Of a stretch of 64,000 nt of DNA, positions 2,756-24,110 are shown piece after piece. Both the position numbers and the translations under genes were made by a program. Positions within the stretch are counted from its first letter, which is position 1; each line of letters opens with the position of its first letter. Source of the stretch: Desulfatibacillum alkenivorans DSM 16219 (lineage in GTDB: Bacteria; Desulfobacterota; Desulfobacteria; Desulfobacterales; Desulfatibacillaceae); the NCBI RefSeq assembly GCF_900142135.1, contig NZ_FQZU01000016.1, positions 1 to 64,000 of the forward strand, written 5' to 3'. The notes beneath the pieces are model-generated. The model searched no databases, had not been told where the DNA came from, and saw only the letters and a program-made list of their open reading frames with translations.

Positions 2756-2989
2756 AAATAGAACGATCAAACCATGCCAATGAAGCACAGTTGTCCATTC
2801 CTCCTGTTTTCAATCAAGATGGAATCTTAATCTGTGGCGTTAGAGCATTTGGAGTGTAACAAAGAGAACAGAGGGTTCCTATCTGCACGGACGCAGTTGA
2901 ACATATTTTTTGGGATGTTGCAGAACCAGGATTTGCTTAAAGCACATGCAGGTTTTGTTTGCTTTTGGACTTAATTGTTAGGAATGGCC

Positions 2990-5338
2990 ATGAATTTTTT
3001 TAGTTTTTTAATCCCCAATTTTCACGACATTTTAAATCCTGATGTATTATTTACAACTAGAATGAGCGCTGGATTAATATTCATTCTTTGGGCATTCTTG
3101 GTGATTGTAGCGGCTTATCTCGTAGTAACAGCGCTCTTTCCTCTGAAATCAATTAAAAGCATGAAAAAACTGCTGTCGGAGCTTACTCCGGAGTTACTTG
3201 TTGAAAAGCGCAGAGATATATTGCTGGGCGCGGAGGAAATTCCCCGTTTAAAAAGAATTTGGCGATTATGGGACGGAACATTGGTGGAAGGGAATGACGG
3301 AAAGAATTTGTATGCCACAGTGAACGCCTCCCAATTTTTTTACTCCCGAGCAATCGCCCCGGAAATTGTAGACAACAGATTTCTTGCCGCTGTCCCGGGT
3401 CTTTTGACTGCGGTGGGAGTACTAGGGACATTTTTAGGGTTGTCCATTGGCCTGGGTGGATTGGACTTATCTGACAAGGGCATGGAGCACATATCCTCTG
3501 GCGTAAACCATCTGATTACTGGTGCATCTTTAGCCTTTTCCACCTCGGTTTGGGGAGTAATATGCAGCATCGCATTCAATTTAATTGAAAAGTTAACTGA
3601 GCGTAGGGTCCGGGATCGGGTGCGTTCATTGCAACGGCAAATAAATGATCTGTTTCCAAGCCTGAACCCAGAGGACACGTTATTGCTGATCGAACAGCAT
3701 GGACGCCAATCACGGGAAACTTTGCAAGGCCTTGCGGAGCAAATCGGCGATCGCATGCAGGAAAGCGTGAACCTGATGGGAGTACAGATGCAGCAGACCA
3801 TGGAAAGCCTGAGCAAATCCATGGTGGACGGCGTAACGGATATGTTGACGCCTGCCCTTGAAAAACTGATTGGAAAGGCGGACGAGTTTGCCGGGCGCCA
3901 GGAAAATGGGGCCCATGAAGCCTTGGCCGAGCTTGTGGAAAAGTTTTCCAACACTCTTGGAAAGCGCGCCAAGGAGCAAGGCAAGGCCATGGAGAACGCC
4001 AACAGAGAGATGCAGGGCCAGTTCAGTTCGTTTGGGGCCTATTTTGAAAAACTCAGCGACTCCCTGGACCAAAAGCATCAACAGGCCCTTGCCCAGGATG
4101 AATCCAGGACGCAAATGTTTCAAACCATTGTCAAGGAGTTGCAAAGTCAACATAGCCAACTGTCTGACAATGTCCGCAGCGGCGTTGAGGCGAACAGAGA
4201 GTCCGTGGTTGAAATCCAAAAGCAGGCTGCGGAGCTTCTAACCGCTGTTGAGAAAAGCCAAAGCGCCTTGAGGAAAACAACGGACGATTTGGGCGAGACG
4301 GTGCAGGGTTTTGGCTCGGCCACAGATAATGTAAAAGAACTTGTGTCGACATTGCGAGATGCTTCCGAACAAATGGCCTCATCAATGAAAGACGCCGGAT
4401 TGGCTACTTCCGCGGCGTCCTCCGAAAGCGCCCAGGTAACCGCAAACCTGGACAAGTTGCTTGCAATAGTTACGGATACCCAGCAACAGATTGAGATCAC
4501 CCGTCAAGGCATCCAGCAGGCAAGCGAAGCCATGGTTGGGGGGCTCAGTTCATCCAATCAGGAAATGCTTGAAAAACTGCAGTCCTTCAGCGAACGCTTT
4601 GAGCAGTTGAGCGAAGTCATGGACAAAAAATACAGCGAAGCAGTTTCCCAGGATGAAAGCCGATCCACCATTTTTGAGTTGTTTGTTGAAGAGATGAGGG
4701 AACAGCAAAAGCTGTTATCCGAAAATGTGAGGGCGGGGGTGGAGGCAAACAATACCTCGACATCAAAAGTGCAGGCCCAGCAGGAAGAATTGGCGGGCGT
4801 GGTTAATCAAAGCCAGCAATCCATGCAACAAGCCGCTTCGGAACTCGAACGGGTCATAGGAGGGTTTGGCGACGCTACAAAAAATATTAATGAACTTGTT
4901 TCCACTTTAAAGAGCGCCTCTGACCAAATGGCGGCTGCTTTGACGGAGGCCGGCCAGAACACGGCGACAGCTTCCAAGGAAAGCGCTCGCGTTTCCGAAA
5001 ATCTGCACAGATCTCTCGTCATGGTGAGGGAAACCCAGGAGCAAATAGAAACCACCCGGCAGGGAATCAAGGAAGCAAGCGAATCCGTGGTGGACGGCAT
5101 GAAGTCGTCAATCGTCCAAAACAGGCAACTCCAAGACGAATTGAAGCAACATGTCGAAGGCCTGCAAAAGCAAGTAAAAACATTGCTTTCAGAATACTCC
5201 GATCAAGTGAATTCGCAAACAGTGGAGCGGTTGGAGGAATGGAATAGGCAGACCCGCAGTTTTTGCAGCGCAATGGTTAATGTCGTTGGCCAGATGAACA
5301 GCGTCCTTGCTGAAATGGAGGACAGGGCCGCCAAATGA
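2990..5338 (+). CDS. zorA: Zorya ZorA, MotA/ExbB-like motor protein with long coiled-coil tail
   Basis: ZorA forms the stator-like membrane motor of Zorya with ZorB. Here a first membrane segment lies near residues 27-49, followed by two MotA/TolQ/ExbB-type helices near 131-155 (PGLLTAVGVLGTFLGLSIGL) and 175-197. The remaining roughly 550 residues are a Gln/Glu/Ser/Ala-rich coiled-coil tail predicted to reach into the cytoplasm. The tail contains two copies of a unit with an exact 185-residue period (QDESR, GFG.AT.N..ELVSTL and IE.TRQGI recur at that spacing). ATG 2990 is preferred over TTG 2975 because TTAGGA lies six bases upstream. The stop overlaps zorB by four bases (ATGA). In published work on E. 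coli Zorya the tail is needed for defence, so its length here matters. Flagellar MotA and ExbB are excluded by the tail and the neighbours. Confidence 0.93.
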   Translation: MNFFSFLIPNFHDILNPDVLFTTRMSAGLIFILWAFLVIVAAYLVVTALFPLKSIKSMKKLLSELTPELLVEKRRDILLGAEEIPRLKRIWRLWDGTLVEGNDGKNLYATVNASQFFYSRAIAPEIVDNRFLAAVPGLLTAVGVLGTFLGLSIGLGGLDLSDKGMEHISSGVNHLITGASLAFSTSVWGVICSIAFNLIEKLTERRVRDRVRSLQRQINDLFPSLNPEDTLLLIEQHGRQSRETLQGLAEQIGDRMQESVNLMGVQMQQTMESLSKSMVDGVTDMLTPALEKLIGKADEFAGRQENGAHEALAELVEKFSNTLGKRAKEQGKAMENANREMQGQFSSFGAYFEKLSDSLDQKHQQALAQDESRTQMFQTIVKELQSQHSQLSDNVRSGVEANRESVVEIQKQAAELLTAVEKSQSALRKTTDDLGETVQGFGSATDNVKELVSTLRDASEQMASSMKDAGLATSAASSESAQVTANLDKLLAIVTDTQQQIEITRQGIQQASEAMVGGLSSSNQEMLEKLQSFSERFEQLSEVMDKKYSEAVSQDESRSTIFELFVEEMREQQKLLSENVRAGVEANNTSTSKVQAQQEELAGVVNQSQQSMQQAASELERVIGGFGDATKNINELVSTLKSASDQMAAALTEAGQNTATASKESARVSENLHRSLVMVRETQEQIETTRQGIKEASESVVDGMKSSIVQNRQLQDELKQHVEGLQKQVKTLLSEYSDQVNSQTVERLEEWNRQTRSFCSAMVNVVGQMNSVLAEMEDRAAK
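4031..5110 (+). repeat. In-gene tandem duplication in the ZorA tail (about 555 bp period)
   Basis: Copy one covers about 4031-4555 and copy two about 4586-5110. The encoded proteins align without gaps at an offset of exactly 185 residues, with strongest matches at QDESR, the GFG-to-STL block and the TRQGI block. DNA identity is visibly lower than protein similarity, so the duplication is not recent. Confidence 0.9.
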
Positions 5339-6120
5339 GGATTTTAAATCAAAACAATTCACCTTACGCAGACGATGACAATCCTTATTGGATTTCCTTT
5401 TCAGATATCATGGCGGGGCTTCTCGTGATTTTTATATTGGCCTGTGTCGTCCTGATTATGAAACTCACAAAAATGAATGAGGAAATGGCGCAAAGGCGGG
5501 TTGAAGTGGAACGGGTTATCCAGGAAATTCAAGGAATCAATGCCTTACGTGAGGAGATGCTTCAGGAAATCAAGGCCGAGCTTGCCGCCAAGGGCATTGC
5601 CGTTGAGATAACGGAAAATTCTTCCGTGCTGCGCGTTCCGGACGACCAGTTGTATTTCAGGACAATGAGTTATGAAATCCCCAAGGAGAAACTTACGCTT
5701 GTTGAAGAAATTGGCAGGGTGCTTCATGACGCCTTGATAAAGGATGACCGATTCACGCATGTGGATACGGTGTTTATTGAAGGCCATACGGACAGCCGCA
5801 GGGCTGGCGGCTTGGCCATGGGAAACTGGGGGCTGTCAACCTACAGAGCCATTGCCGTCTGGAAATATTGGTCCGAAGAAACTGATTACGGGCCGGGTTT
5901 GCTTGAAATGAAGAATATGCAAGGCCAGAACATGTTTTCCGTTAGCGGGTACGCGGCGACTCGCCGAGTGGAGTTGGAAGAGGTCTGTGAAGACTCTTTT
6001 CGGCGAAACAGAAGAATCGACCTGCGTTTTTCCATGAGGAAGCCAGTGGTTTCCGACTATCAAGGCGTCATTGACTTATTGGGGGGAGAAAAGGCGAATG
6101 TCCAGGATCAGGCCTCCTAA
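5335..6120 (+). CDS. zorB: Zorya ZorB, MotB-like protein with OmpA peptidoglycan-binding domain
   Basis: ZorB pairs with ZorA to form the ion-driven motor and anchors it to peptidoglycan. The 261-residue product has a short cytoplasmic N terminus, one membrane helix at about residues 24-43 beginning with the MotB-type Asp24 (SFSDIMAGLL), a coiled-coil linker to about residue 85 and a periplasmic OmpA/MotB domain. Peptidoglycan-binding residues are visible in EGHTDSRR (149-156), NWGLSTYRA (164-172) and NRRIDLRF (225-232). Translation is coupled to zorA by an ATGA overlap, and the end overlaps the zorC start by 23 bases. Gene order and the lack of flagellar neighbours argue against a flagellar stator. 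Confidence 0.94.
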   Translation: MRILNQNNSPYADDDNPYWISFSDIMAGLLVIFILACVVLIMKLTKMNEEMAQRRVEVERVIQEIQGINALREEMLQEIKAELAAKGIAVEITENSSVLRVPDDQLYFRTMSYEIPKEKLTLVEEIGRVLHDALIKDDRFTHVDTVFIEGHTDSRRAGGLAMGNWGLSTYRAIAVWKYWSEETDYGPGLLEMKNMQGQNMFSVSGYAATRRVELEEVCEDSFRRNRRIDLRFSMRKPVVSDYQGVIDLLGGEKANVQDQAS

Positions 6121-7579
6121 AATCAATCTGCCGGAATGGGGGGAAATGGGCGGGGCCGACTGGGCATCTTCCATGACGGACGCGCTTGAGAGCCTGTCCC
6201 GTAACATTGGGACGAATTCAAACAAGTTTTTGCTTCGGAAAGATGAAATCAGTCGATTGTGCAGAAAGGGAACTCCATTATCCCGAATGCTCAAAACAAA
6301 AAGGGATGCAAAAATATTTGCCATTCTCTGGAACGAAGATCGAGCGATTTTACAAGCATATCCGCCATCGTCCAAGACGCTGGAAATCATCCACAATCTT
6401 TTTCCAAGGCCGAGTCTGCAGATAGTCATTAATTTGCTTGATCTGTTTTTTAGAGAGTATGATCATCTCCCGGATTCACAGTCTTTGAGCCAAACGGTAA
6501 GAAAAATGATGGAGAATTATTCCCAAAGTCCTTTTGTGGGGGATCAGGGAAGAATTTTTGACAATAAAGAAATTCTTTTTGGCCCTGATGGGCCAAGGGC
6601 TCTGGCAAGAGAGAGTATCAGGAGCAAAAAAGATTTTGAGCAGGCGTGCTTTGACAAGGGGTTGCCTATAGGGATGGGAGGGCGGTTTCTTGAGCTTGCA
6701 AAACAGCAATATTACCTCGAAACAATAGCCAATCTTAAGATTGGTGCAAAGTCCGCCATATTTTCAGAGGTTAACAAGACTTCCGTTAAGGAAAGCCCCT
6801 CCCAAAGGAACGGAGAGTTTTTTGGGCATGACATAGTTCGGGCCATGATTGACAGGGTGTCAGCCTCAAAAACCGTAATGCCCGACAACTGGATACAGGT
6901 CGTTTTGAGTATCGCGGGAGATCCGCGGAGGTCAAAAGGAGGGGGTAATTACCAAAGGTGGTGGTCTCCCTTGGAAGGAGAATACCGCAGCCGCATGTTG
7001 AGGTGGCTCTCAAGGTATGATCTGAATCTCTTCCTGCGTGTTTTGCAAGAATCCTCTACAACGGATGCCATGAAAAGGATGTTTCCGGCTCGCAGGCTCT
7101 TTTTGGAGGGGCTGGAAAAATCCGGCCTTGTTTGTGAATCAGTACTGTTTCTGAGTTGGTCAGCTGAGTCTTATGTAAAACGATCCATTCCCAAAAGTAA
7201 GCTGCCGCACTATAACTCTCTTTCAGATTATGACACCTCTGTCATTTATCTTAATCTTGGAAAGTGCCACCTGATTGAAGGGACTCACAACTACCGTTTG
7301 TGGTTGCACGGCAAGCTGCCGCCTAAGAACCCAATCGACTTTCCTTTTTTTTCCGGCTTGTCATCCAGGGATTTGGGCATGGGCTTGAAAGAACAGTACG
7401 AAAAGGCGATAAGGACAGGCAAACAAGGGCCTCCTCCTATTGGGGTTATCCACAGCCGCAATCTAACTTGGCAAAAAAATGCGATAAAAGGCATGAAGAA
7501 GTTTGGGTTACGTGTTGATCCAGAGAAGGTTCTCTCGGCCCAAGATTATGATGAGTACCTGGAAAAGTTTGGAGCTTAG
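6098..7579 (+). CDS. zorC: Zorya ZorC, EH-signature domain protein
   Basis: ZorC is the type I Zorya cytosolic effector/DNA-binding component. The 493-residue product is mostly helical, with no membrane segment. The EH-signature region is near the C terminus: conserved Glu and His are seen in HLIEGTHNYRLWLHG (about residues 396-410), preceded by the WW...R..W block (PLEGEYRSRMLRWL) near 295-310. ATG 6098 is chosen because a GGGGGAG sequence lies just upstream and the start falls inside the end of zorB; a TTG at 6071 would add nine residues. The gene is more AT-rich by eye than the pilus genes further right, which fits horizontal acquisition. It ends three bases before zorD, so the four genes form one operon. 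Confidence 0.9.
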   Translation: MSRIRPPKINLPEWGEMGGADWASSMTDALESLSRNIGTNSNKFLLRKDEISRLCRKGTPLSRMLKTKRDAKIFAILWNEDRAILQAYPPSSKTLEIIHNLFPRPSLQIVINLLDLFFREYDHLPDSQSLSQTVRKMMENYSQSPFVGDQGRIFDNKEILFGPDGPRALARESIRSKKDFEQACFDKGLPIGMGGRFLELAKQQYYLETIANLKIGAKSAIFSEVNKTSVKESPSQRNGEFFGHDIVRAMIDRVSASKTVMPDNWIQVVLSIAGDPRRSKGGGNYQRWWSPLEGEYRSRMLRWLSRYDLNLFLRVLQESSTTDAMKRMFPARRLFLEGLEKSGLVCESVLFLSWSAESYVKRSIPKSKLPHYNSLSDYDTSVIYLNLGKCHLIEGTHNYRLWLHGKLPPKNPIDFPFFSGLSSRDLGMGLKEQYEKAIRTGKQGPPPIGVIHSRNLTWQKNAIKGMKKFGLRVDPEKVLSAQDYDEYLEKFGA

Positions 7580-7582
7580 TTC

Positions 7583-10500
7583 ATGGGTATTTTGGATGCA
7601 ATCCGGTCATTGCGGCATCAATCCAAGTCCTCCTTCGAGGTGCGCCCGGATAGTAAAAGTCTGTTGTTTTCATTATCCAAAGATCAGTTTGATGAATGCC
7701 TTGACGGCAAAGCAGAGCCCTTCGTGACGCACCAGTTCGTCGCCCTGAAAATGTTGGAGGAGCAAGGCGCGGCGGAGCAATTGGCAAACGGGTTTCGGGT
7801 GTTTGCCGCGGACGCCGTTTGTCTGGATCAGGAAAACCGTGAATTGCTGGGCCTCCCGGAACCATGGCCTGGTTCTTTTGACGTTAATTTTATCGCTCAG
7901 ACGACCAGGAGCGGCTTTGAGATTCAATGTTCCCTTTGTTTCCTGGACGGCGCCAAAACGCGTCAGTACAGCCTCAACGGACCTATGCTTAGATTGAGCG
8001 AACAGGAAACCTATTTGCCGGATCATGCGCAGTGGACAATTCTTGACGCCGTTAAATGGCATCATGACCTGCCTGGAGAAAAGCGCACCGAATATAACAA
8101 TCTTTTGGCAGTCCATTTGTTGCAAGAAGCAAAAAAAGAGGGAGCCCGGATTCAACTCGCGCATTTTGAGGATTTGGAAACCGCAGTCCCCGGCTCCGTA
8201 GGGGTAGCCGGCCGCCTGGCGGACAATGGAGACCTTTTTCTCCTTCCAAGTTTTGAAAATCTGGGCGCCGAAGAAATGGATATTGAAAAACGGTTAGGGC
8301 AGCTCTCAGATAATCCGGTTGCAAGTTTTCGGGTGAAAAACAAAATAGTTCTGCTGGATGAATCAAGATTTAACGCCGCAAGGGAAATCATTGAACACCG
8401 CCGAATCCCCAAGGAGCAGGTCCAACAGTTTCTTGAAACGCCCTCTGCGTATCTGGATGCTTCTCTGGTAAACCTTGAGCTGGGCTTTTCCTTCCGCATG
8501 CATGGGGCCACCGAATTCAAACACGCGTACTTTGGGAGGACGGACGCCGCCAGTATCGAGTGGTTTCAGCTTATTGAGCAGCCTAAGGAAAGGCCTGCGG
8601 AAACGCCTTCCAAACTGGAACGGGTCATAAAGGAATTGGATGACGTATACGCGTTTCGCGAGCGCATGGAGGACGCCAGGCATGCAGGGGCAGAAACCTT
8701 TCCCTTTAATGAATACGAATTTTCTCTCTCGGAATCGGCTAAATTGGAGGCGGAACTTAAAGAGATAGAGACCCAGTTTGAAACAAATAGAGAAGAAACC
8801 CATGAGCAACACGAAGAAGATAAAGAGGTTCTATCCAAGGACAAGCCCGCTCTATTGACAACGGATATTGACACCCACGACGAGGCCCTGCCGGAGTGTC
8901 TTTCTGATGGAACAAATATAGATTTTAGTCCGTGGGCGCAACCAATTGATTGGTCGATTGTAAAACGGTCGCCGTATCCGCATCAGGAACAAGGGGTGCG
9001 ATGGCTATTAGGGCACATGGACGGCGCTTTGAGGCACCCGCGGCCGGAAAGTGGAGTTCGCGGGTGTCTTCTTGCGGATGACATGGGGCTTGGTAAGACA
9101 TACATGACTTTGGTCGCCATGGCGCTTTTCCTCAAAATGCGTAAGGATTTGTGGCTTTCCACCGGTCCGGTCCTGGTGGTCGCGCCTTCCATCCTGTTGG
9201 ATGTCTGGAACCAGGAGGTGGAAGCAACCTTTCACCAATCTCCCTTTAGAGACATCGTCACCCTCCAGGGCAAGGAACTCTCAAAATTTAAAAGCGCCAA
9301 AGGCAATGAAATCCATGGCGATGGCGGAGATGTTCGATATTGCCTGAAAGTCGGGGGCCGGGATTATCCCATTGATCGGTTGGACATGCCCAACCGGCTT
9401 GTCCTCACAACCTACGACACACTCCGGAACTATCAATTTTCCATGTGCTCCGTGGACTGGTCCATGGTGGTCTTTGACGAAGCTCAGGCCATTAAAAACC
9501 CCAACTCCCTTCAAACAAGAGCGGCAAAAGGCCTTCGTTCAGGCTTCAACCTTCTGGTGACCGGCACGCCTGTCGAAAACGATCTTAGGGATTTTTGGTG
9601 CCTTTTTGACACGGCATTCCCAGGCTACTTAAGAGCCTATCAAGATTTCCGCAAGCAATACATGGCGCCCATTTGTAACGCACCGCCGGACAACGTGGGG
9701 CAAACTCGTGAACAAGTCGGCAAAGAGCTTCGAGAGCATGTGGGTGAATTCATGCTCCGGAGAACAAAGGAGGAGAACTTAAAAGGGCTGCCGGAAAAAC
9801 GAATCCGATTGGGCGCTCCCGTTCCGTCTGTCAGTAGCAGCCAAATCAAGGTAAAGCACGCACCAAACTTGGAGTGTATGATGGAAGGCCGTCAACGCTT
9901 GCTTTATGATAGCATAATAACAGCTACTCTTGACGCCCAGAATGGAGGACAAAAGGGCGCAGCCTTAAAAGGCCTCCATCAGTTGCGGGATGTTTCTTTG
10001 CACTCTGGGATAATGGATGGAGGAGTCCTTCCGGAACCGGAAAAAGTTTTGGACATCCAAGCAGGGAAGGGAGAGTCGGCAAAACTGGCGAGATTGCTTC
10101 TTCTCATTGATGAAATCAGGGATCGAAATGAAAAGGTAATAATTTTTCTGATCAATCGACGTTTACAACGATATCTTTCCACTGTCCTGCAAATGAAATA
10201 TCACCTACCCGTCGACATTATTAATGGCGAAACAAAAGGGCAAGGTACTGGGCGTGACCCCAAGACGAGGCACACTATGATTGCTAAGTTTCAAGCGCAA
10301 AAAGGTTTTGGCGTATTGATCATGTCCCCCCTTGCCGCGGGCGTGGGGCTGACAGTGACGGCGGCCAATAATGTGATTCACTTTCAGAGGCACTGGAATC
10401 CGGCGAAAGAAGATCAGGCTACGGACAGGGTTTATAGGATTGGTCAAGAGAGAGTGGTCAATGTCTACATACCTGTGGCCCATCATCCTGAGATGCCCTC

Positions 10501-11092
10501 GTTTGAAGTAAATTTGAACACATTATTATCAAGAAAAACAGACCTCAAGGATGCCGTTGTTACATGCCCGGATGTGTCGCCCGATCAGATTTACGCACAA
10601 GGGATTTTTGGCCATAGCGCTTCCATACCAAAGCAGGAGCCGCTTGGGATGGAAGATGTTCACGAAATGCCTTGGGCTCATTTTGAAGCGTTGGCGGCTG
10701 AACTGGCCGTTAGAGCCTTTGATGCAGAGGCTTGGCTGACCCCGGCTTCAGGCGACCGGGGCTGCGATGTCGTCGTAATGAGCGCCAATCATGGTAACAT
10801 GCTCATACAGTGCAAGCACTCCGGCAAGGGGGCGGTTAGCGGCGAGATGGCAAGCAGAGAGGTACATAGCTCAAAGCCTTTCTACGAGGAAATGGCCGGC
10901 TGCAAATTTCAACGCCTGATTGTGTGCACCAACGTCAAAAAAATTTCGGCGAAAGAAAACGAAATTAAGAAGATTTATGGCGTTGAGTTCTGGAACGGCG
11001 GCGCCATAAAGAAACTGCTTGCCAAAAATCCAATCAGGCAATCAGATATATTGAGTCGCTTATATGCTGATCGATTTACGGAGAAGGCTTAA
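7583..11092 (+). CDS. zorD: Zorya ZorD, SNF2-type helicase with C-terminal Mrr-like nuclease
   Basis: ZorD is the DNA-degrading effector of type I Zorya. The 1,169-residue protein has an N-terminal region of about 450 residues with an acidic coiled stretch near 380-420. A SNF2/SWI2 motor follows: Walker A DDMGLGKTY at about 499-507, DEAQ at 632-635, VTGTPVEND near 659-667, and motif VI QATDRVYRIGQ at about 945-955. The C terminus (about 1030-1150) is a restriction-endonuclease fold with GDRGCDVVV at 1057-1065 and the catalytic IQCKH at 1075-1079, plus a CTNVKKIS strand. All core ATPase and nuclease residues are present, so the gene looks intact. It starts three bases after zorC and ends the operon; 62 bases separate it from the next gene. 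Confidence 0.94.
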   Translation: MGILDAIRSLRHQSKSSFEVRPDSKSLLFSLSKDQFDECLDGKAEPFVTHQFVALKMLEEQGAAEQLANGFRVFAADAVCLDQENRELLGLPEPWPGSFDVNFIAQTTRSGFEIQCSLCFLDGAKTRQYSLNGPMLRLSEQETYLPDHAQWTILDAVKWHHDLPGEKRTEYNNLLAVHLLQEAKKEGARIQLAHFEDLETAVPGSVGVAGRLADNGDLFLLPSFENLGAEEMDIEKRLGQLSDNPVASFRVKNKIVLLDESRFNAAREIIEHRRIPKEQVQQFLETPSAYLDASLVNLELGFSFRMHGATEFKHAYFGRTDAASIEWFQLIEQPKERPAETPSKLERVIKELDDVYAFRERMEDARHAGAETFPFNEYEFSLSESAKLEAELKEIETQFETNREETHEQHEEDKEVLSKDKPALLTTDIDTHDEALPECLSDGTNIDFSPWAQPIDWSIVKRSPYPHQEQGVRWLLGHMDGALRHPRPESGVRGCLLADDMGLGKTYMTLVAMALFLKMRKDLWLSTGPVLVVAPSILLDVWNQEVEATFHQSPFRDIVTLQGKELSKFKSAKGNEIHGDGGDVRYCLKVGGRDYPIDRLDMPNRLVLTTYDTLRNYQFSMCSVDWSMVVFDEAQAIKNPNSLQTRAAKGLRSGFNLLVTGTPVENDLRDFWCLFDTAFPGYLRAYQDFRKQYMAPICNAPPDNVGQTREQVGKELREHVGEFMLRRTKEENLKGLPEKRIRLGAPVPSVSSSQIKVKHAPNLECMMEGRQRLLYDSIITATLDAQNGGQKGAALKGLHQLRDVSLHSGIMDGGVLPEPEKVLDIQAGKGESAKLARLLLLIDEIRDRNEKVIIFLINRRLQRYLSTVLQMKYHLPVDIINGETKGQGTGRDPKTRHTMIAKFQAQKGFGVLIMSPLAAGVGLTVTAANNVIHFQRHWNPAKEDQATDRVYRIGQERVVNVYIPVAHHPEMPSFEVNLNTLLSRKTDLKDAVVTCPDVSPDQIYAQGIFGHSASIPKQEPLGMEDVHEMPWAHFEALAAELAVRAFDAEAWLTPASGDRGCDVVVMSANHGNMLIQCKHSGKGAVSGEMASREVHSSKPFYEEMAGCKFQRLIVCTNVKKISAKENEIKKIYGVEFWNGGAIKKLLAKNPIRQSDILSRLYADRFTEKA

Positions 11093-11154
11093 CAAGCGCC
11101 CAAAGAAAATTTATAAAATTGCAATTTTCTGAGGAAAATTAAATTGAGGTTTCT

Positions 11155-11901
11155 ATGTCAAAACTGTTTCCGATCCACGGAAAAATCAAATGCAGCAGGT
11201 GCTTTGAAGGCGCCCCCGTGCAATGGGGGAAGACTTTTATCGAAAGCAATGGCTGGACTCTCGAGAATAACCCGGGGGCATGGGGCAGCCGGAACCCGGA
11301 AATCCTGATTTTGGGGTATTCCAAAGGAGATCGCCAAGCAAAGAAAATCCTCAGCATTCCTTTTGACGAAATCCCCTTCAAAGGCATGCGGAATAATTTG
11401 ACCCGAATCCTGCAAAAGCTGGGAATTTTGTCGCTGGGTGAATCAATTGATCAGAGAATTCACGGCGAGGAGAATGAACTGGCTTTTGGCTCCCTGATTC
11501 GATGCAGCCTGGGCCTGTGGGACTCCGGGAAAGGGGCTGTAAGAAAAAGCGGTGGACTCATCAAGGCGTCGTTCCGGGAAGAACCAGCTCGTCAGTACAT
11601 TAGGAATTGCAGCAATGAGTATTTGTTCAACCTGCCTACGAGGCTGAAATTGATTTTGATGATGGGAAACGGAGACGACTATATTGGCGATTGTTTTAAC
11701 ATGATGGCCGAGATTCATCCGGAGATAAAAAGAATCAATGAAGTGGCATATTCAAACGGGGCGGTGATCTGGGTCCACCTGGTGCACCCTTCCGGCGCGG
11801 GTATGTCCCATATCAAGGCCTGGCTTGAGGCTGATAATGGTAAGCAGGCGGAGAAAAGGAAAGCAGCCATAGAGGCTGTGAGGTCGATTGGAATAGGGTA
11901 G
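11155..11901 (+). CDS. Uracil-DNA-glycosylase-superfamily-like protein, candidate 4Fe-4S type
   Basis: The 248-residue product shows the order of motifs typical of Fe-S uracil-DNA glycosylases (families 4/5): CSRC near residues 12-15, ILILGYSKG in the motif A position, LIRCSLG, then RNCSNEYL leading into the LILMMGNG strand, and VHLVHPSGAGMSH in the motif B position. Four cysteines in CxxC...C...C order could bind a cluster, although the spacing between the last two (33 residues) is longer than the usual 14-17. The catalytic loop is not canonical, so the substrate could be a modified base instead of uracil. It lies between zorD and the ADP-ribosylglycohydrolase, which suggests a defence role; that is inference. 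It may also be a plain repair enzyme. Confidence 0.6.
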   Translation: MSKLFPIHGKIKCSRCFEGAPVQWGKTFIESNGWTLENNPGAWGSRNPEILILGYSKGDRQAKKILSIPFDEIPFKGMRNNLTRILQKLGILSLGESIDQRIHGEENELAFGSLIRCSLGLWDSGKGAVRKSGGLIKASFREEPARQYIRNCSNEYLFNLPTRLKLILMMGNGDDYIGDCFNMMAEIHPEIKRINEVAYSNGAVIWVHLVHPSGAGMSHIKAWLEADNGKQAEKRKAAIEAVRSIGIG

Positions 11902-11977
11902 TGTTTCGGCATTGGCAATAAGACCAGGCCCATTATTGATTTGGTCTTTAAAGACGGTTAACTGCGTTGAGAGCCAA

Positions 11978-12913
11978 ATGAGCAATATAGATGCAAAATT
12001 TAAGGCCATACTATACGGCCTGGCTATCGGGGATGCTTTGGGATTTCAGGTGGAGTTTTCAAAACTGCCCCATATTTATGAGAGGTTCGGTAGGGAAGGC
12101 GTGACGGATCTACCGGAAGACGCCTTGTTTTCCGACGACACCCAGATGACCATTGCCATCGCCGAAGCCCTGGTAAAGGCCGGCGACAAGGATTTGGAGT
12201 CCATCATGGCGGAGGTCCGCAGAGAATTCATCAAGTGGCTCCATTCTCCCGAAAACAATCGCGCCCCGGGCAACGCCTGCCTTATCGGGGTGGAAAACAT
12301 GGAGACCGGAATTCACTGGTCGCAATCCGGGGTTGCCGACTCCAAGGGGTGCGGATCCGCCATGCGCGTCGCTCCTGTAGGTTATTTGTACCAGAATCAG
12401 CCTGAGAAGCTCAAAGAGGTTGCCAGCGCGACGGGCATTTGCACCCATGGCCACCCCACCGGGGACGCCGCCTGCATAGGCGCCGCTTATTTGGTCAAGT
12501 TGGCTTTGGACGGCATTGATCCCGGCGATATGGTTCCCAGGCTCCTAGAGTTTACCAAAGGCATTTCACAAGAGTTTGACGAAGCCATACTGAAAATAAC
12601 CCATTGCCTGGACTGGGACGACGAAGACGAGGCCTTGTCCTGTCTGGGAGAAGGCTGGATCGGCGAAGAAGCGGTGGCCTTGGCTCTGTATTGCTTCCTG
12701 AGATATCCAAACGATTATAAAAAAACGGTTCTTCGCGCCGCCAACACCAATGGGGATTCCGACTCCATTGCCTGCGTTGCGGGAGGAATCAGCGGGGCCT
12801 ATCTGGGGCTGGAAGCCATACCCCGGGACTGGATATCCCGGATCGAAAAGTCAGAATATTTGGAAGACTTGGCGGACAGACTTGCAAAGGTAAAAAATAA
12901 TAAATCCGGCTAA
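11978..12913 (+). CDS. ADP-ribosylglycohydrolase family protein
   Basis: This is an ADP-ribosylglycohydrolase (DraG/ARH fold), which removes ADP-ribose from proteins or nucleic acids using two Mg ions. The 311-residue product has the family motifs GLAIGDALG near residues 14-22, FSDDTQMT near 50-57, a GCGSAMRV block near 125-132, and the C-terminal metal-binding NGDSDSIACVAGG near 268-280. All metal ligands expected from these motifs are present. ATG 11978 fits the family N terminus; the frame is open upstream to 11912 but that extension has no family similarity. It is 28 bases before mcrB and reads with it. An ARPP-1-type gene lies beyond mcrC, and that family was named for association with ADP-ribosylglycohydrolases, so a link to ADP-ribose chemistry is plausible. 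Confidence 0.9.
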   Translation: MSNIDAKFKAILYGLAIGDALGFQVEFSKLPHIYERFGREGVTDLPEDALFSDDTQMTIAIAEALVKAGDKDLESIMAEVRREFIKWLHSPENNRAPGNACLIGVENMETGIHWSQSGVADSKGCGSAMRVAPVGYLYQNQPEKLKEVASATGICTHGHPTGDAACIGAAYLVKLALDGIDPGDMVPRLLEFTKGISQEFDEAILKITHCLDWDDEDEALSCLGEGWIGEEAVALALYCFLRYPNDYKKTVLRAANTNGDSDSIACVAGGISGAYLGLEAIPRDWISRIEKSEYLEDLADRLAKVKNNKSG

Positions 12914-12941
12914 AGCGGATTTTCTACGTGTGGAGGATGCA

Positions 12942-15074
12942 ATGTATTCTTGGATTCCCTTTTATGAAGAGTTGGCGGAAAAACTTGTCGATTATAAGGA
13001 TCGCCAGCCGAAGTTGATCGAATTCCTCAAGCAGATGAAGTCCGAGGGGGCGAAGATATTCCCTCTCAGGGACAAGGGGGCAGACGGAGCTTCCATGAAC
13101 TTGGAGGAAATCGATCCTTTCACCTTTTTAGCAACCGCCAACCGGGGGATTACGGAGGATAACCGTAAGGCTATACTTCGCCGGTTTAAAGAGGTTTTTC
13201 AGCTGACCGCGGAGGTTCCGGGGGATTTTAGCGGCGTGCCCCGGGTCAACAATTTGAATGCCTGGTTTTTCGCCTATAAGTATGACCGGAAGGCGGATGA
13301 TATACAAAGCCTTTGGCGGCTTTTTGAAATCTTGGTTAAAGAACGCAGGGTTGACGAGGCCCATTTTAACAGATGTCTGGAAATCCAAAAGCTGAGCATC
13401 TCCAAGCTGTCCATCGGGCTGTATTGGTTCAGCCCGATAGAAATTTTGCCATATGATTCACTGACTCAAAAATTCCTGGCGGATCATGGTTTAAATCAAA
13501 ATGTGGATGACTACGCAAGCTACATGGCCATGCTGGAAGCCGTTAAGGAAAAGTTTTCCGGCCCGTTCAACGAAATCAGTTGGGAGGCTTTCCAGCATCT
13601 CGGATCGCAACACACCCTGCACAATAAACTGATCGCCGGCGCGCTTCAAGAAGACAGGAATTGCTCTTATAATGTCTGGAAGGAAAAAGTCGGCGATATT
13701 CTGGCGCCTGTATACAATGATCTCGCCAAAGCCATCAAGGATGCGGAAATCCCGGTGGGAAAGGCCGTAAAGTACAACAGGCCCAAAAAAGACACGGCCA
13801 AGGAAAGGCAGTGCCTGTATAGCATCAAGTGGAATTTTGAAAACCCCACGCCGGATTTAGGGCCTAATCCCATTCAGTTCCAGATTGGCTTGGGAGAAAG
13901 GATCCAGGGCGGGGATCATTCCATTTGGTGGGGGGTATGCTGGTGGGGCAAGGCCGAATACGCCGACGCAGTGACCCGGTTTTTTGAAAGCCTGGAAGCC
14001 GAAAGCAAATTCATCAACAAGGAAGGCTCCGCCCTCTTTGGCGGCACGAACGTCTGGCTTGTCCAGAAACGCTATTCCAGCGAGGACGTCGCGTCCATTG
14101 ACCATGACATCAAAGAGGAAATCATCGAGGATTTTATGAATATCGCCCAGGCTTTGGAAGACGCTAGTCCCCCTATCATTGTTACGCCCCCTCCCGACCC
14201 GGAGGAATATTCCGTGGAAACCGCTCTTTCGGAGCTTTTCATGGATGAGAAGACCTTTGTGGAAATCATGAGCGCCCTGGCGTATCGGAAGAATATCATC
14301 CTGCAGGGGCCTCCCGGGGTGGGCAAGACCTTTCTGGCAAAGCGTTTGGCCTACGCCATGATGGGAAAGAAGGACAACGAACGGGTCGAAATGATCCAGT
14401 TCCATCAATCCTACGCCTATGAGGATTTCATCCAGGGCTACCGCCCCACCGACAATGGGGGATTCGACCTGAAAAACGGCGTCTTCCATGAATTTGTCAA
14501 ACGGGCTCAACAGGATCCGGACCATCAATACTTTTTTGTGATTGACGAAATCAACCGGGCCAATCTCGGCAAGGTCTTCGGCGAATTGATGATGCTCATC
14601 GAAGCGGACAAGCGCGGCGCCGAATATTCCATTCCCATGGCCTACGCCAAAAACAGTGAGGAGCGGTTTTATATTCCCAAGAATCTGTATCTGATCGGAA
14701 CCATGAACACTGCGGACAGGTCCATCACCATTGTGGATTACGCCCTGCGCAGAAGGTTTTCCTTTTTCAGCCTGCAGCCGGAGTTCGGCGGCAAGTTCAA
14801 AAAGCATCTGGCGGAATTCGGCGTCAGCTCCGAACTGATTGAACAGCTTGTCTCCCGGGTATCGGAACTGAACAGCTTCATTGTCGCGGATAAGAAAAAC
14901 CTGGGGCCCGGCTTTGAGATAGGGCATAGCTTCTTCTGTCCCTTGGAAACGGTGGCGGACGCCAGGACTTGGTATAACAGGATCGTGCGGTTGGAAATTA
15001 AGCCCCAACTCATGGAATATTGGTTTGACGCCCCTGAAAAGGCGGAAGAAAGGGCGGACTTGCTATATATATGA
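12942..15074 (+). CDS. mcrB: McrB-type GTPase of modification-dependent restriction system
   Basis: McrB is the DNA-recognising AAA+ GTPase of McrBC. The 710-residue product has a long N-terminal half unlike the E. coli DNA-binding domain. It includes a helical module (residues about 40-190) and a second domain with WNFENPTPDLGPNP and IWWGVCWWGKAEY near 285-345. The GTPase module starts near residue 430: Walker A LQGPPGVGKTF near 453-463, Walker B FFVIDEINRANLG near 530-542, and the McrB signature GTMNTADRS near 586-594. ATG 12942 is preferred over GTG 12930 because GGAGG lies five bases before it. The end overlaps mcrC by four bases. The unusual N-terminal half should set target choice, which cannot be deduced here. 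Confidence 0.92.
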   Translation: MYSWIPFYEELAEKLVDYKDRQPKLIEFLKQMKSEGAKIFPLRDKGADGASMNLEEIDPFTFLATANRGITEDNRKAILRRFKEVFQLTAEVPGDFSGVPRVNNLNAWFFAYKYDRKADDIQSLWRLFEILVKERRVDEAHFNRCLEIQKLSISKLSIGLYWFSPIEILPYDSLTQKFLADHGLNQNVDDYASYMAMLEAVKEKFSGPFNEISWEAFQHLGSQHTLHNKLIAGALQEDRNCSYNVWKEKVGDILAPVYNDLAKAIKDAEIPVGKAVKYNRPKKDTAKERQCLYSIKWNFENPTPDLGPNPIQFQIGLGERIQGGDHSIWWGVCWWGKAEYADAVTRFFESLEAESKFINKEGSALFGGTNVWLVQKRYSSEDVASIDHDIKEEIIEDFMNIAQALEDASPPIIVTPPPDPEEYSVETALSELFMDEKTFVEIMSALAYRKNIILQGPPGVGKTFLAKRLAYAMMGKKDNERVEMIQFHQSYAYEDFIQGYRPTDNGGFDLKNGVFHEFVKRAQQDPDHQYFFVIDEINRANLGKVFGELMMLIEADKRGAEYSIPMAYAKNSEERFYIPKNLYLIGTMNTADRSITIVDYALRRRFSFFSLQPEFGGKFKKHLAEFGVSSELIEQLVSRVSELNSFIVADKKNLGPGFEIGHSFFCPLETVADARTWYNRIVRLEIKPQLMEYWFDAPEKAEERADLLYI

Positions 15075-16117
15075 AAGTGCCCATTCAAAACATTTATTAT
15101 CTGCTCTGCTATGCATGGGATAAGTTGGAAGAACGGGAAGTTGTGGATGTTTCCCTGAGCGATGAAACCAATCTGGCGGACCTGTTTGCCAAGGTTTTAA
15201 TCAACGGGACGACCTATCTTTTCAAACGGGGGCTGGATCGCGGGTACCTGGATGTCAACGAGGACACAAGAAGCCTTCGCGGAAAAATCCGCATATCCCC
15301 TTCCATTAAAAGGAATCTCTTCCGGCGCTCCATGGCGTCCTGTTGCTACGACGAACTTTCCTACGATGTGCTGCATAACCGGATTCTTAAGGCAAGTTTC
15401 AGAACCCTGTTACGGGTGGGGGATTTGGACAAAGGCTTGAAAGAGGAACTGGCCGTCCTTTATAAAAAATTCCCCCCAATTTCGGACATTACTCTTGAGA
15501 GCCGGCATTTTTCCCAGGTCCGCCTTAACAGGAACAACCACTTTTATGATTTCCTCCTTCAGATCTGCCGTATAATTCACGAGTCCGTGTTTGTGGATGA
15601 AGCCGCTGGCGAGGCGCGATTTATGGATTTCATCCGCGACGAAATGCGTATGGCCGCGGTCTTTGAGGAGTTTGTACGGAATTTCTACCGCAAGGAGCTG
15701 AGCGGCTTTCGGGTGGGGACGGAATACATCCAATGGACGCTCGCCCAGCCCAGTTTGGATGACGCCTATCTTCCCTACATGGAGACGGACACGTCCCTGA
15801 CCGCCGTGGACGGATCCAGGAAAATCGTCGTGGAGACAAAATATTATAAAAAGGTCCTGCGATCCAGGATGGGGGCGAGAGGAAAAATCAATTCCGCGCA
15901 CCTTTATCAGTTGTACGCTTACCTCAAGAACCTGGAGGCGGACAAAGGGCCTAACTCCAACTGCAAAGGCATTCTTCTATATGCGGCCGTGGATGAGGAC
16001 TTGGATTTCCATTATTCCCTGCCCGGTCATGATCTCCGTGTAAAAACTCTTAATCTGTGCCAGGACTGGAAAGATATTCATTCCGAACTAGTGGCATTGG
16101 TGGGAGAGTGCGCCTGA
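15071..16117 (+). CDS. mcrC: McrC-type endonuclease subunit
   Basis: McrC joins the McrB ring and carries the PD-(D/E)xK nuclease. The 348-residue product begins with IQNIYYLLCYAWD, the family N terminus, and has an LRGKIRISPSIKRN block near residues 73-86. The nuclease core lies near 235-260: TDTSLTAVDGSRKIVVETKYYKK provides the acidic residues and the E-x-K catalytic pair. A later HLYQLYAYL helix is also conserved. Start and stop codons overlap with mcrB (ATGA), so the two are translationally coupled. No downstream terminator is evident before the ARPP-1 gene. Confidence 0.92.
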   Translation: MKVPIQNIYYLLCYAWDKLEEREVVDVSLSDETNLADLFAKVLINGTTYLFKRGLDRGYLDVNEDTRSLRGKIRISPSIKRNLFRRSMASCCYDELSYDVLHNRILKASFRTLLRVGDLDKGLKEELAVLYKKFPPISDITLESRHFSQVRLNRNNHFYDFLLQICRIIHESVFVDEAAGEARFMDFIRDEMRMAAVFEEFVRNFYRKELSGFRVGTEYIQWTLAQPSLDDAYLPYMETDTSLTAVDGSRKIVVETKYYKKVLRSRMGARGKINSAHLYQLYAYLKNLEADKGPNSNCKGILLYAAVDEDLDFHYSLPGHDLRVKTLNLCQDWKDIHSELVALVGECA

Positions 16118-16179
16118 TCAGATCCCTCCAAAGTATGTATCCAAAAACTATGGACACCAATTCAATATATTTTTTTGCG

Positions 16180-16198
16180 GTGTGACCGTATCTGACAT
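16180..16198 (+). repeat. Right copy of 19-base direct repeat flanking the defence cluster
   Basis: It matches 857-875 at 17 of 19 positions in the same orientation and follows an AT-rich stretch with a T7 run. It lies between mcrC and the ARPP-1 gene and may mark the right edge of a transferred block. Confidence 0.5.
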
Positions 16199-16244
16199 CT
16201 ACATGGGTTATCCTCCCCAGAAATCATCAACAAGGAGGATGACA

Positions 16245-17222
16245 ATGAATCAGGTACAAGATTTTTTAGATGCGGTTAAGATCGCCGGCAAGCAAACTTT
16301 TCAGAACATGACGGTTTTCCCTCTATTGGCTCCCCAAAATGGCGACCCCGGCTATCTCACCCTGGAAGAAGCCCTGGCAAAAGGTTTTGTCCAAGTAACA
16401 GAAGTGGACGAGTCGGGCAGCGTCCCGGAGCTCTTCCTGCGGAACCGGGGCGAAGTCAGCATCTTGATCCTTGAGGGCGAAGAACTTGTCGGCGCCAAAC
16501 AAAACCGGGTTGTGAACGCAACCTTTCTCATCCCCAGGAAAACGGAGCTAAAACTTCCGGTTAGCTGCGTCGAGCACGGAAGATGGGACTACACCAGCCG
16601 GGAATTCAAAACCAGCGACAAAGTCATGCACGCCAGCCTCCGCAGGAAAAGCCAGCAGGACGTCTGCTTGAACATGGCTGCGGGACGCGGGTTTCAGTCC
16701 GACCAGATGAAAATATGGGACGACATCAGCGGGAAGGCGCATAGACTTAAGGCCAATGCCCCTACAAGGGCCATGTCCGACGTTTATGAAAGCTCCAAGG
16801 ATCTCCTTGAAGGCTACATGCAGCGATTCAGCCTTATGGAATGCCAGGTCGGAGCGATTTTCGCGATCAATGGAAAAGTGCTGGGGCTGGAGTGCTTCGG
16901 CTATAGCGACACGTTTAAACGGTTTTTTGAAAAATTGTTAAGGAGCTATGCCCTGGACGCCATCGACATGAAAGAGGGAGCCGCATCCAAACCGATGAGA
17001 CCGGAAAAAGCTCACGACTTCTTCAACTCGGTGATGGAAAGCACACCGCATGCTCACGGCTCGGTTGGCAGCGGCATGTTTTATCGAATCGATTCCTGGA
17101 CGATCAGCGGCGCAGCTCTTTTGGAACAGGGACAGGTCCTCCACTTATCGGCTTTTCAAAAAGAAGAGCCTGGCGAATCACCGCGGGTCGGATTTCAAAG
17201 ATTTTCCCAAAGGCGCAGATGA
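16245..17222 (+). CDS. ARPP-1 (DUF6569-like) domain protein
   Basis: The 325-residue protein matches the ARPP-1 pattern I know from bacterial genomes: YLTLEEALAKGFVQVTEV, then LILEGEELVGAKQNRVVN near residues 82-99, LPVSCVEHGRWDY near 113-125, and VGAIFAINGKVLGLECFG near 200-218. No membrane segment or signal is present. Its activity is unknown; the family name records co-occurrence with ADP-ribosylglycohydrolases and rhodanese/phosphatase domains. ATG 16245 is chosen because AAGGAGG ends six bases before it; ATG 16239 abuts the Shine-Dalgarno sequence. A glycohydrolase gene lies 3.3 kb upstream in the same direction, with McrBC between them. Confidence 0.75.
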   Translation: MNQVQDFLDAVKIAGKQTFQNMTVFPLLAPQNGDPGYLTLEEALAKGFVQVTEVDESGSVPELFLRNRGEVSILILEGEELVGAKQNRVVNATFLIPRKTELKLPVSCVEHGRWDYTSREFKTSDKVMHASLRRKSQQDVCLNMAAGRGFQSDQMKIWDDISGKAHRLKANAPTRAMSDVYESSKDLLEGYMQRFSLMECQVGAIFAINGKVLGLECFGYSDTFKRFFEKLLRSYALDAIDMKEGAASKPMRPEKAHDFFNSVMESTPHAHGSVGSGMFYRIDSWTISGAALLEQGQVLHLSAFQKEEPGESPRVGFQRFSQRRR

Positions 17223-17487: not shown

Positions 17488-17564
<77 letters not shown>

Positions 17565-17849: not shown

Positions 17850-20800
17850 TTATCTCAGCCCGGCCAGATGCTGAAGCACGTACAAGGCGTCGGAAAAATC
17901 CACCTTGCCGTCGCCGGTGACGTCGGCCAGCCTGATTTCTTCATACACATAGGGATCGGCGGCGGTCTGGCGCAGCATGATGATAACGTCCGCCAGGCTA
18001 AGGGTATTGTCTCCGTTGGCGTCGCCCGCCTTTAAGAGCGCAAACTCCGCGGTCAGGGATTGGGCGCCGTCAATAAACACGGTGCAGTCCTCCCCGGTGC
18101 AATCTCCGCTCCATCCCACGAACACCGAGGCGGCGTCCGGCGTGGCTTTTAGGGCGACCTCCGTGTTTTGGGTAAAGTCTGCGGAGCATGCGTCCGGGCA
18201 GACTATCCGGGCGAGGGGGTAGCTTTTGACGGTTCCCCCGCCGTTCCCGGTTTGTTGGACGGACACGTCGTACATGGGCTGCGTGAAATTGGGGGTCACG
18301 GCCGTTTTTTCGGTGAGGGTGAAGGTGCAGGCCGCTGTGCCAGAGCATACGCCGCCGCCCCATCCCGTGAAGGTGGAGCCCTCGCCCGCCGCCGCCGTGA
18401 GCGTGATTTCCTCTCCTGCCGTGAGTATCCGGCGGCAGTCCAGGCCGCAGTCGAAGTAGCCGGCGCCGTCTGTCACGGCGCCTTCGCCGTTGCCTGTTTT
18501 GACCACGGCCAATTGCACGAGCCCGGCTTTGCCCGGGCCGCCAGACCCGCGGATTTCTCCGTTCACGGACAGGTCGTGGTCGCCAGTGAAAGCGTCTTTA
18601 TAATGGATGACCAGTTCGTCGCCGGAAAACTCCCCGCCGAGGCCGGTTTGATCGTCGTAATCAAAGGCTTGCCAGTGGGGGAGCGTTTGATCCAGTGACG
18701 GCCCGTAGGCGTAGTACACATCCGCGCCCGGATCGGCGGGGAACAGGATGCTCACCTCAACCGTAGCCGTGATGGGGGCGTTTACGATGGTGTATTGGAA
18801 GAATCCCTGGGAGAAGTCCACGCCTTGCGGCATGTCCTGGGATGAAGGGTTGGGGGCTGCCGCCGCCGAGGCGAACTCGCCCTGGGAGGTAGTCAGGGTG
18901 ACGTAATCCCCGTTGATCGTGTGCAGGGAAGCCGTCGTCGCCTGATACTTGTCGGCCACGCCGTCCGCGTCGCCGTCGTAGCCGGCATCCAGCCCGTCGG
19001 CGCCGCTTTCCTCATTATCCAGGACCCCGTCGCCGTCCGAGTCCATGTTCAGGGCGGCCTCCTCCGCCTCGGAGACGGGCAGGGCGGTGACGGTAATGGT
19101 TCCTGCTAATCCTGCGCCCGTGGAATAGGGATAGACTCCGGCCGTTTCAAAGCGCCGGATGTAGTGGGTTCCCGGCGCCATCATGCCCGAGTCGAAGCCG
19201 TTCGGGTTGGTCAGGGGATCCAGGGCGGAAAGGACGCGCACCACGGGATTTTTCCTAAGTTCGGCAGTCTCGTCCGCGTCCGCATCCGTGGGCGGCAGGG
19301 AGACCCATTCCACGGCCTGGCCTTCCTGGATGACGATGGCGGAAACGTCCTGTCTGCCTTTGTTATCCAAAAGGTGCATGCCCTCCGGGGATACGTATAG
19401 GACAATGTCCGACTCGTTTTCCTCCATAGGGGTGTATGGCGCGTTGACGTGCACGATTTCGGCGATCACCCGCACCACCTGGCTGCGCCATGACTGCCAG
19501 CCCTCTGGATCCTCCACCTGGATGTAATAGAATCCCGGCGGCGTGAAAAAGGCGAAATATCCGTCCTCGCCCGTGACCTGGGGATTGATCTGGTCCTCGT
19601 ACAGATGGGCGGGCCATGCCACCCAGGCTTGCTGATTCTCGTTCCACCACATGCATGTGGCGATGGAGCCTGGAACCACATTGCCCCAGCCCAGGGTCGA
19701 GTTGACCACGTATCCGTCCGGATCGATGAGCACCTGTCCCTGTTCTTCGCCGTCCGTTTCCTCTCCGCAGGTGACCAGCAGGCTTATATTATGCGCGAAT
19801 CCGACATCAACATTGAATGTGTTCCCAAATGCCGAGGCCTCGTCGTCCACATACTCCACGCCGTCTGCGACCAAGGTCAGCTTATGGGGATCTTCGTTGC
19901 AGTCGCAGCTGAAAATTTCAACATGCGATTCATCAAATCCCCAAGCGCCCGGGATTGTCCAGTTGGATGTGCTTAAGTATCCGGTATCTTGGTCTTTAAA
20001 GAGAAATGTGTGGTCCTGGCCGGCTATGTCTTTGCCGGTCCAGGAGGAAAGCTGGGGGTTCCAAAGCTGCGCCGCCTTGTAATTGACAGTGATGGGCCGG
20101 GTTCCTGACACGCAGTTATATGGGGCGATTTTTGAGCAGGCGTCCACGGAGATTTGATAGGACGCCGGGGCGGGTTTGGCCAAGTTGACCAAGGCCTGGA
20201 AATATCCTGAATCATCAGCCTGCACCACGGCCTCCTCGACTGAATCCACATATACATGCGCCTCGGTGTTGCACTGGATGACGCCTTCCACATAAAGGTT
20301 TCCGGGGCAGACCTCGCCGTTCATGGGGGAGTATACGATGGGGCCGGCCAGGGGCACGGTCATGGAAACCACCAGGGATTCCGGATTGCCGCTTCCCGGT
20401 TCCACAATGCCGCCCTCTTCAGCCTCATCCAATACCCAAACGGCCTTTACTTTCTGGGCATGCTCGGGGTTCTCCGGCTCCCAGCTCTTGTTGGTGAATC
20501 TTTCATCATAATATATGACAATTTTTTCATCAGGCATAAGAGGCTCATCCGAGACCCATTCAGACGCCACTTTGTCATAAGTTATGTTCCGGGGAGAGTG
20601 GCTCTCAAGGCTGGAAGCGTTTTCCGGGCGGCCGCTGAAGCCGGAAAGATCCTGCAACTGAATGTAAAAAGGCGGAAGGATTGGAGGCCTTTGGGGATCC
20701 GGATTACGGTAGTAGCATTCTATTGCGTGAGCTTTTGTATAAAAAGGCTTATATTCCTTGTCCTGCGCGGATGCATTTACATCCACGGCTTCATGATTGA

Positions 20801-24080: not shown

Positions 24081-24110
24081 GTCAAAATTCCTAAGGCGCT
24101 GGGGTTTCAT

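Follow-up and report, generated by a model that had tools for sequence, protein, structure and literature searches.

A gene in a defense island of Desulfatibacillum alkenivorans DSM 16219 encodes a protein of a distinct family within the uracil-DNA glycosylase (UDG) superfamily, one that is predicted to bind an Fe-S cluster and is enriched near restriction genes. The gene is an open reading frame (ORF) for 248 amino acids at positions 11155 to 11901 on the plus strand of the window, by which we mean the whole 64,000-nucleotide stretch of contig NZ_FQZU01000016.1 that was analyzed. On balance, and with somewhat better than an even chance, we regard this protein as a DNA glycosylase that represents a new Fe-S family, was recruited to phage defense, and removes a modified base in the manner of the Brig glycosylases. 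We infer the cluster itself, catalysis, DNA as the substrate, a modified base as the target, and a role in defense; removal of a phage-specific base would be the best inference by analogy. Searches of the literature available to the analysis returned no description of the family.

The original prediction had read the motifs CxxC, ILILGYSKG, IRC, RNC, and VHLVHPSG, in that order, in this ORF and had remarked on an unusually long spacer before the fourth cysteine. Both observations held up. The ORF carries C13xxC16 (11191 to 11202), ILILGYSKG at residues 50 to 58, IRC117, RNC152, and VHLVHPSG at residues 207 to 214. C13, C16, C117, and C152 (11608 to 11610) are the four predicted ligands of an Fe-S cluster and are invariant in 65 of 65 homologs. 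Because this invariance persists among proteins only 27 to 45% identical to the window protein, the motifs reflect more than chance. The 34 residues between the third and fourth cysteines (residues 118 to 151, SLGLWDSGKGAVRKSGGLIKASFREEPARQYIRN; 11506 to 11607) comprise, in an AF2 model, a β hairpin, a conserved S/T132-G133, and a helix. Across 61 members this spacing ranges from 31 to 48 residues, whereas all ten UDGs compared from family 4 have exactly 15, and the long spacer is a trait of the whole family.

The AF2 model, built from a 61-sequence alignment, had a pLDDT of 95.3 and a pTM of 0.92. The best structural relatives in the PDB were all UDG-superfamily enzymes: the family 4 enzyme 1ui1 (Z 10.7, 175 residues aligned, 3.8 Å), UdgX (Z 10.6), TDG (Z 10.5), the family 4 enzyme 4zby (Z 10.3), and Mug (Z 9.7). 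Foldseek searches with the model gave E values as low as 3.7e-6, with TM-scores of just about 0.4 to 0.45. At the sequence level, the Pfam UDG model (PF03167) scored the window protein at 14.5 bits, below its gathering cut-off of 24.3, and matched 8 of 61 members at E ≤ 1 (best 2.6e-4, in one member). Searches of NCBIfam, PADLOC, and PDB sequences with the window protein yielded no match, and PHROGs gave sub-significant matches alone. In a profile-profile comparison with family 4, the probability was not significant and the best path was collinear. As far as prediction can settle the matter, the protein has the UDG α/β/α fold. The likeness to family 4 and 5 UDGs that had been claimed thus stands for the superfamily fold and the four cluster cysteines, but membership in those families does not, as motif A, motif 3, and the cysteine spacing differ.

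The putative active site was mapped by anchoring on the four cysteines and following the collinear but statistically weak hhalign path, and the residue assignments below carry the low confidence of that alignment. In the UdgX active site, uracil is bound by the motif 3 Asn and stacked upon by F65, while H178 exerts a pull on O2 (PMC10776899). Motif A of the window protein, G54-Y/F-S56-K57-G58-x-x-Q61 (11314 to 11337), occupies the position held by GE(A/G)PG in family 4 enzymes and by GEQPG in UdgX; S56, K57, and G58 are each present in 61 of 61 members and Q61 in 60. The predicted counterpart of F65 is F75 (11377 to 11379; Phe or Tyr in 61/61), and that of H178 is H211 within motif 2, H208-L-V-H211-P-S (11776 to 11793; H208 in 58 of 61 and H211 in 60 of 61). 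Motif 3, S113-L-I-R116-C117 (11491 to 11505), reads S-x-I/V-R-C across the family and includes the third cysteine (61/61); Ser113 stands, also in all 61, at the base-reading Asn position of N-x-x-K-C. With F75 and H211 conserved and S113 replacing the Asn, the stacking and His functions known from UdgX are probably retained and the uracil-reading Asn lost. The four invariant cysteines and the near-invariant putative pocket residues argue for an active enzyme.

The family comprises about 65 diverse members from Proteobacteria and Desulfobacteria, chiefly from Alpha-, Gamma-, and Betaproteobacteria with a few from Desulfobacteria/Deltaproteobacteria. The relatives come from 58 loci in the GTDB genome collection, five viral contigs, and several plasmids. 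A single-sequence search of phage records and IMG/VR found no homologs; the five viral contigs were recovered by an alignment-based search of viral sequences. Five weak matches to the UDG Pfam model in related genomes (L015 to L019) were rejected as relatives, four being SMUG-like (NPGPWG) and one Ung-like (GQDPY).

The island that contains the ORF is flanked by a DDE_3 transposase ORF (258 to 773) and ends near a tRNA-Met gene (17488 to 17564, minus strand). Its first gene encodes a WYL-domain regulator (1727 to 2755, plus strand; Pfam WYL and WCX) and is followed by a type I Zorya system, ZorA, ZorB, ZorC, and ZorD, recognized by PADLOC (2975 to 11092, plus strand). The glycosylase-like ORF begins 62 nt after zorD, and 76 nt separate its stop from the start of a gene for a DraG-like ADP-ribosylglycohydrolase (11978 to 12913; PF03747, 7e-74). 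The genes for McrB (12930 to 15074; AAA_5) and McrC (15071 to 16117; PF10117, NF007277) come next, and an ARPP-1 domain protein (16182 to 17222; PF20208, 6e-98) closes the island; all five genes from the glycosylase-like ORF onward are on the plus strand. The same order includes a second genome (L109) in which a WYL gene 53.6% identical to that of the window lies directly 5' of McrBC (L109 positions 3224 to 8018). By this comparison, ZorABCD, the glycosylase-like gene, and DraG are what the window holds between WYL and McrB, and the two regions (1727 to 17222 in the window) resemble modular cargo under a single WYL gene. When DraG-McrBC was sought as a unit elsewhere, McrBC was found without DraG. 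Past the tRNA gene, the minus strand encodes a 2086-residue protein (17850 to 24110) with DUF11, right-handed beta-helix, NosD, InlB-like repeat, and dockerin domains.

At least 17 of the 67 member loci had restriction or defense homologs within 10 kb, as opposed to 0 of 20 loci of ordinary UDGs in these genomes (Fisher p 0.009), and a paired comparison of member and ordinary UDG loci gave 5/20 versus 0/20 (p 0.047), a contrast that is somewhat biased despite the exclusion of seed proteins, self-hits, and own-locus hits from the count, because the seeds were taken from the studied loci themselves. About two-thirds of the loci had no recognized defense gene within 10 kb in this incomplete survey. 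No partner gene was universal, and the neighboring nucleases varied by locus. In three loci (L038, L039, and L043), the member is contained in a type III Res-Mod-U-UvrD operon, where U is the glycosylase-like gene and UvrD a UvrD-like helicase; the gaps in the first two operons are only 3 to 4 nt. Elsewhere, the gene lies 64 nt behind that for GmrSD, after SNF2 helicase, Mod, and Res genes (L073), or, following helicases and an Eco57I-type methylase, ahead of an HNH gene (L065). Other members adjoin type I HsdM/S/R (L023 and L083), DUF6361 and helicases (L060), or an Eco57I-type methylase and a helicase (L053). Four members (L042, L079, L081, and L082) are located in prophage-like DNA with one terminase family. 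Several adjoin housekeeping genes such as those for CobT, a tRNA synthetase, and GyrB, and many members are therefore best described as single-gene cargo. Radical SAM genes directly adjoin the glycosylase-like gene in two unrelated loci (L023, 8970 to 9995, by Pfam; L002, 12966 to 13859, as read from sequence).

These surveys bear on what had been proposed about the neighborhood. The expectation that relatives have defense neighbors was borne out as an enrichment, though for only about a third of them. The ORF had been placed between Zorya and McrBC; Zorya is indeed directly upstream, but the DraG gene separates the ORF from McrBC. No support emerged for McrBC as its particular partner. McrBC was rejected as a conserved neighbor, being found only in the window, near L042 and L081 in the opposite orientation, and at a greater distance from L029 (three or four of 67 loci). 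DraG was rejected as well, its sole other match (L037) being beside an ordinary family 1 Ung gene.

Ten members have C-terminal extensions of approximately 80 to 150 residues. Those of L036, L062, L067, and L071 are one common domain, which also stands alone beside the glycosylase-like gene in L052 (9486 to 9779) and L069 (10730 to 11095). The same domain appears in the N-terminal half (about residues 179 to 292) of the McrB that adjoins the L081 member (13994 to 14356, minus strand; E 3e-9) and is fused to an HNH-like nuclease, read from sequence, in Thauera (L095, 879 to 1577). It had no Pfam match and no confident PDB match (model pLDDT 76). Since specificity in McrBC systems usually resides in the N-terminal part of McrB, the shared domain is probably a target-recognition module of restriction enzymes. 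A second recurrent partner, a protein of about 250 to 440 amino acids with an apparent helix-turn-helix (HTH), is encoded beside 14 members (L003, L021, L022, L024, L030, L035, L045, L046, L052, L057, L062, L066, L072, and L074), often with a small DUF4258-like ORF in between. The L021 glycosylase carries the C-terminal domain of this partner as a fusion; comparison of the two kinds of C-terminal domain established no homology between them. The window member has neither the C-terminal domain nor the HTH partner. A bolder and rather doubtful extension of the preferred reading is that the family represents a class of "restriction glycosylases": UDG-fold Fe-S effectors with a Ser-Lys motif A whose chemistry, perhaps covalent or of the lyase type, departs from that of every UDG family described so far. 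They would serve as interchangeable warheads replacing the nuclease, either as inserts in type III restriction-modification (R-M) operons or as fusions with a small target-recognition domain common to McrB and HNH nucleases.

The association with R-M genes could instead reflect a repair enzyme, kept with these genes to remove bases that are deaminated or mispaired (for example, a T facing G that arose from 5-methylcytosine) and so protect the host genome. The UDG/TDG fold (TDG Z 10.5) is consistent with such a function, as are a C5-cytosine methylase gene and a gene reading as Vsr that adjoin L021, a C5 methylase homolog near L080, and Vsr homologs near L047 and L059. However, adenine is the usual methylation target of the type I and III systems that adjoin other members, and no deamination in need of repair arises with McrBC, GmrSD, or Zorya. 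Ordinary UDGs above the Pfam cut-off were found in 32 of 32 host genomes tested, as well as in the window's own genome, and the glycosylase-like gene is therefore an extra paralog rather than a replacement for a repair enzyme. Unlike a repair gene, it is also rare and patchy, being present in 2 genomes out of 389 in the window's class, and we regard this explanation as unlikely.

Alternatively, the protein might be a noncatalytic or trapping reader whose binding to a modified base recruits or licenses neighboring nucleases such as McrBC, ZorD, or type III Res. A reader would be in keeping with the loss of the residues canonical for motifs A and 3, with the place of members inside R-M operons, and with their fusion to or pairing with a domain that an McrB and an HNH nuclease also carry. 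Yet the replacement residues are nearly invariant across 27 to 45% identity, a pattern more suggestive of new chemistry than of loss and one that makes a pure sensor role less likely; the nucleases, moreover, differ between loci, so that there is no fixed partner. We find a reader quite unlikely. Also quite improbable is a bifunctional or self-trapping glycosylase, in which Lys57 or a residue of the insert between the third and fourth cysteines would attack C1' and produce a covalent protein-DNA adduct or a strand nick, comparable to UdgX. Position 57, where GExPG has its Pro, holds Lys in 61 of 61 members, and the insert occupies the site of the cross-linking R-loop of UdgX, but the KRRIH signature of that loop is absent. 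Finally, action on ADP-ribosylated bases together with the adjoining ADP-ribosylglycohydrolase, or on RNA or free nucleotides instead of phage-modified DNA, is very improbable: DraG lies 76 nt downstream, the ARPP-1 gene closes the island, and ADP-ribosylglycohydrolase genes occur beside Brig1 homologs and in the Brig3 cosmid as well, but DraG is not a conserved neighbor (its other match accompanies a family 1 Ung gene) and Brig3 defense did not need its ADP-ribosylglycohydrolase (PMC13160076).

We therefore return to the reading that we prefer, a defense glycosylase that excises a modified base. In this mechanism, the four-cysteine cluster and the long insert would hold the DNA-binding side of the UDG fold, and a flipped base would be stacked on F75 and held by His211 of motif 2. 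The altered motif A (S56-K57-G58..Q61) and S113 of motif 3 would take the place of the uracil-reading residues, and a different, probably phage-specific modified base could thereby be accepted. Hydrolysis of this base would leave abasic sites that block phage replication, as with Brig1 and Brig3. The glycosylase would be an independent module in a WYL-headed island of Zorya, DraG, and McrBC. If this is true, base excision would emerge as a broader arm of bacterial immunity, one that includes an Fe-S family of its own, found across Proteobacteria and Desulfobacteria, linked to restriction systems, and equipped with a rebuilt active site. The family could also yield an enzyme that removes a modified base beyond the reach of every known glycosylase, and the change of the base-reading residue from Asn to Ser makes the question of the substrate directly testable.

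Among described UDGs, family 4 enzymes (UDGa; T. thermophilus 1UI1 and S. tokodaii 4ZBY) share with the window protein the fold, the N-terminal CxxC, two later cysteines, the aromatic stacking residue, and the motif 2 His. Their motif A has the pattern GE(A/G)PG (PMC10359453), extended as GE(A/G)PG..E, whereas that of the window family is GFSKG..Q (G-F/Y-S-K-G in 61/61). The motif 3 Asn is invariant in ten family 4 proteins and Ser113 in 61 of 61 members here, in a low-confidence alignment that is anchored by the adjacent cysteine. The spacing of 15 residues between the third and fourth cysteines, as opposed to 31 to 48, and the score below the Pfam cut-off further distinguish the window protein from family 4. 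Motif A in family 5 (UDGb) is of the GLAPG type, and the window family has GFSKG at this position instead. UdgX, the cross-linking UDG of M. smegmatis, has the same fold and an extra motif 3 loop at the equivalent place, but the window protein lacks its KRRIH R-loop and GEQPG motif A (GYSKG here), and the window family differs from it in retaining all four cysteines. Human TDG and E. coli Mug (family 2) also share the fold, and the third residue of motif A could be a polar catalytic position in both cases; unlike the window family, they are without the cysteine cluster and have GINPG as motif A. R.PabI-type base-excision restriction enzymes share the idea of restriction through base removal in R-M loci, but their fold is unrelated and their target is an unmethylated recognition sequence. 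Because motif A, the motif 3 Ser, and the cysteine spacing differ, the window family is, by these defining motifs, none of family 4, family 5, or UdgX, and uracil is unlikely to be its main target.

The closest functional parallel comes from Brig1 to Brig3, the only three defense glycosylases described in the literature consulted. Brig1 removes alpha-glucosyl-5hmC (PMC11078745) and Brig3 removes 5hmC (PMC13160076), and base excision as a phage defense is thus proven in principle. Like the window family, as judged from the published descriptions, Brig1 and Brig3 are UDG-superfamily proteins in defense islands with an ADP-ribosylglycohydrolase gene nearby, and the best Dali match of Brig1 is 4zby, which is also among the relatives of the window model. 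Glu55 of Brig3 contacts the hydroxymethyl group of 5hmC, and Brig1 has Gln81 at this site. Gln61 of the window protein is five residues past the motif A residue aligned with Asn50 of Brig3, the same offset as that of Glu55, which is only a hint at a C5-substituted pyrimidine substrate. The families also differ: the Brig3 paper mentions no Fe-S cluster, motif A of Brig3 is N50-P51-S52-R53-x-E55, and no BapA-like gene was recognized at the window locus. The defense-island location is common to both, with the window gene in an island that holds Zorya and McrBC and 17 of 67 relatives, versus 0 of 20 controls, near restriction or defense homologs. Set beside Brig1 by description, what is probably new here is a UDG-superfamily DNA glycosylase for defense that carries a new set of motifs.
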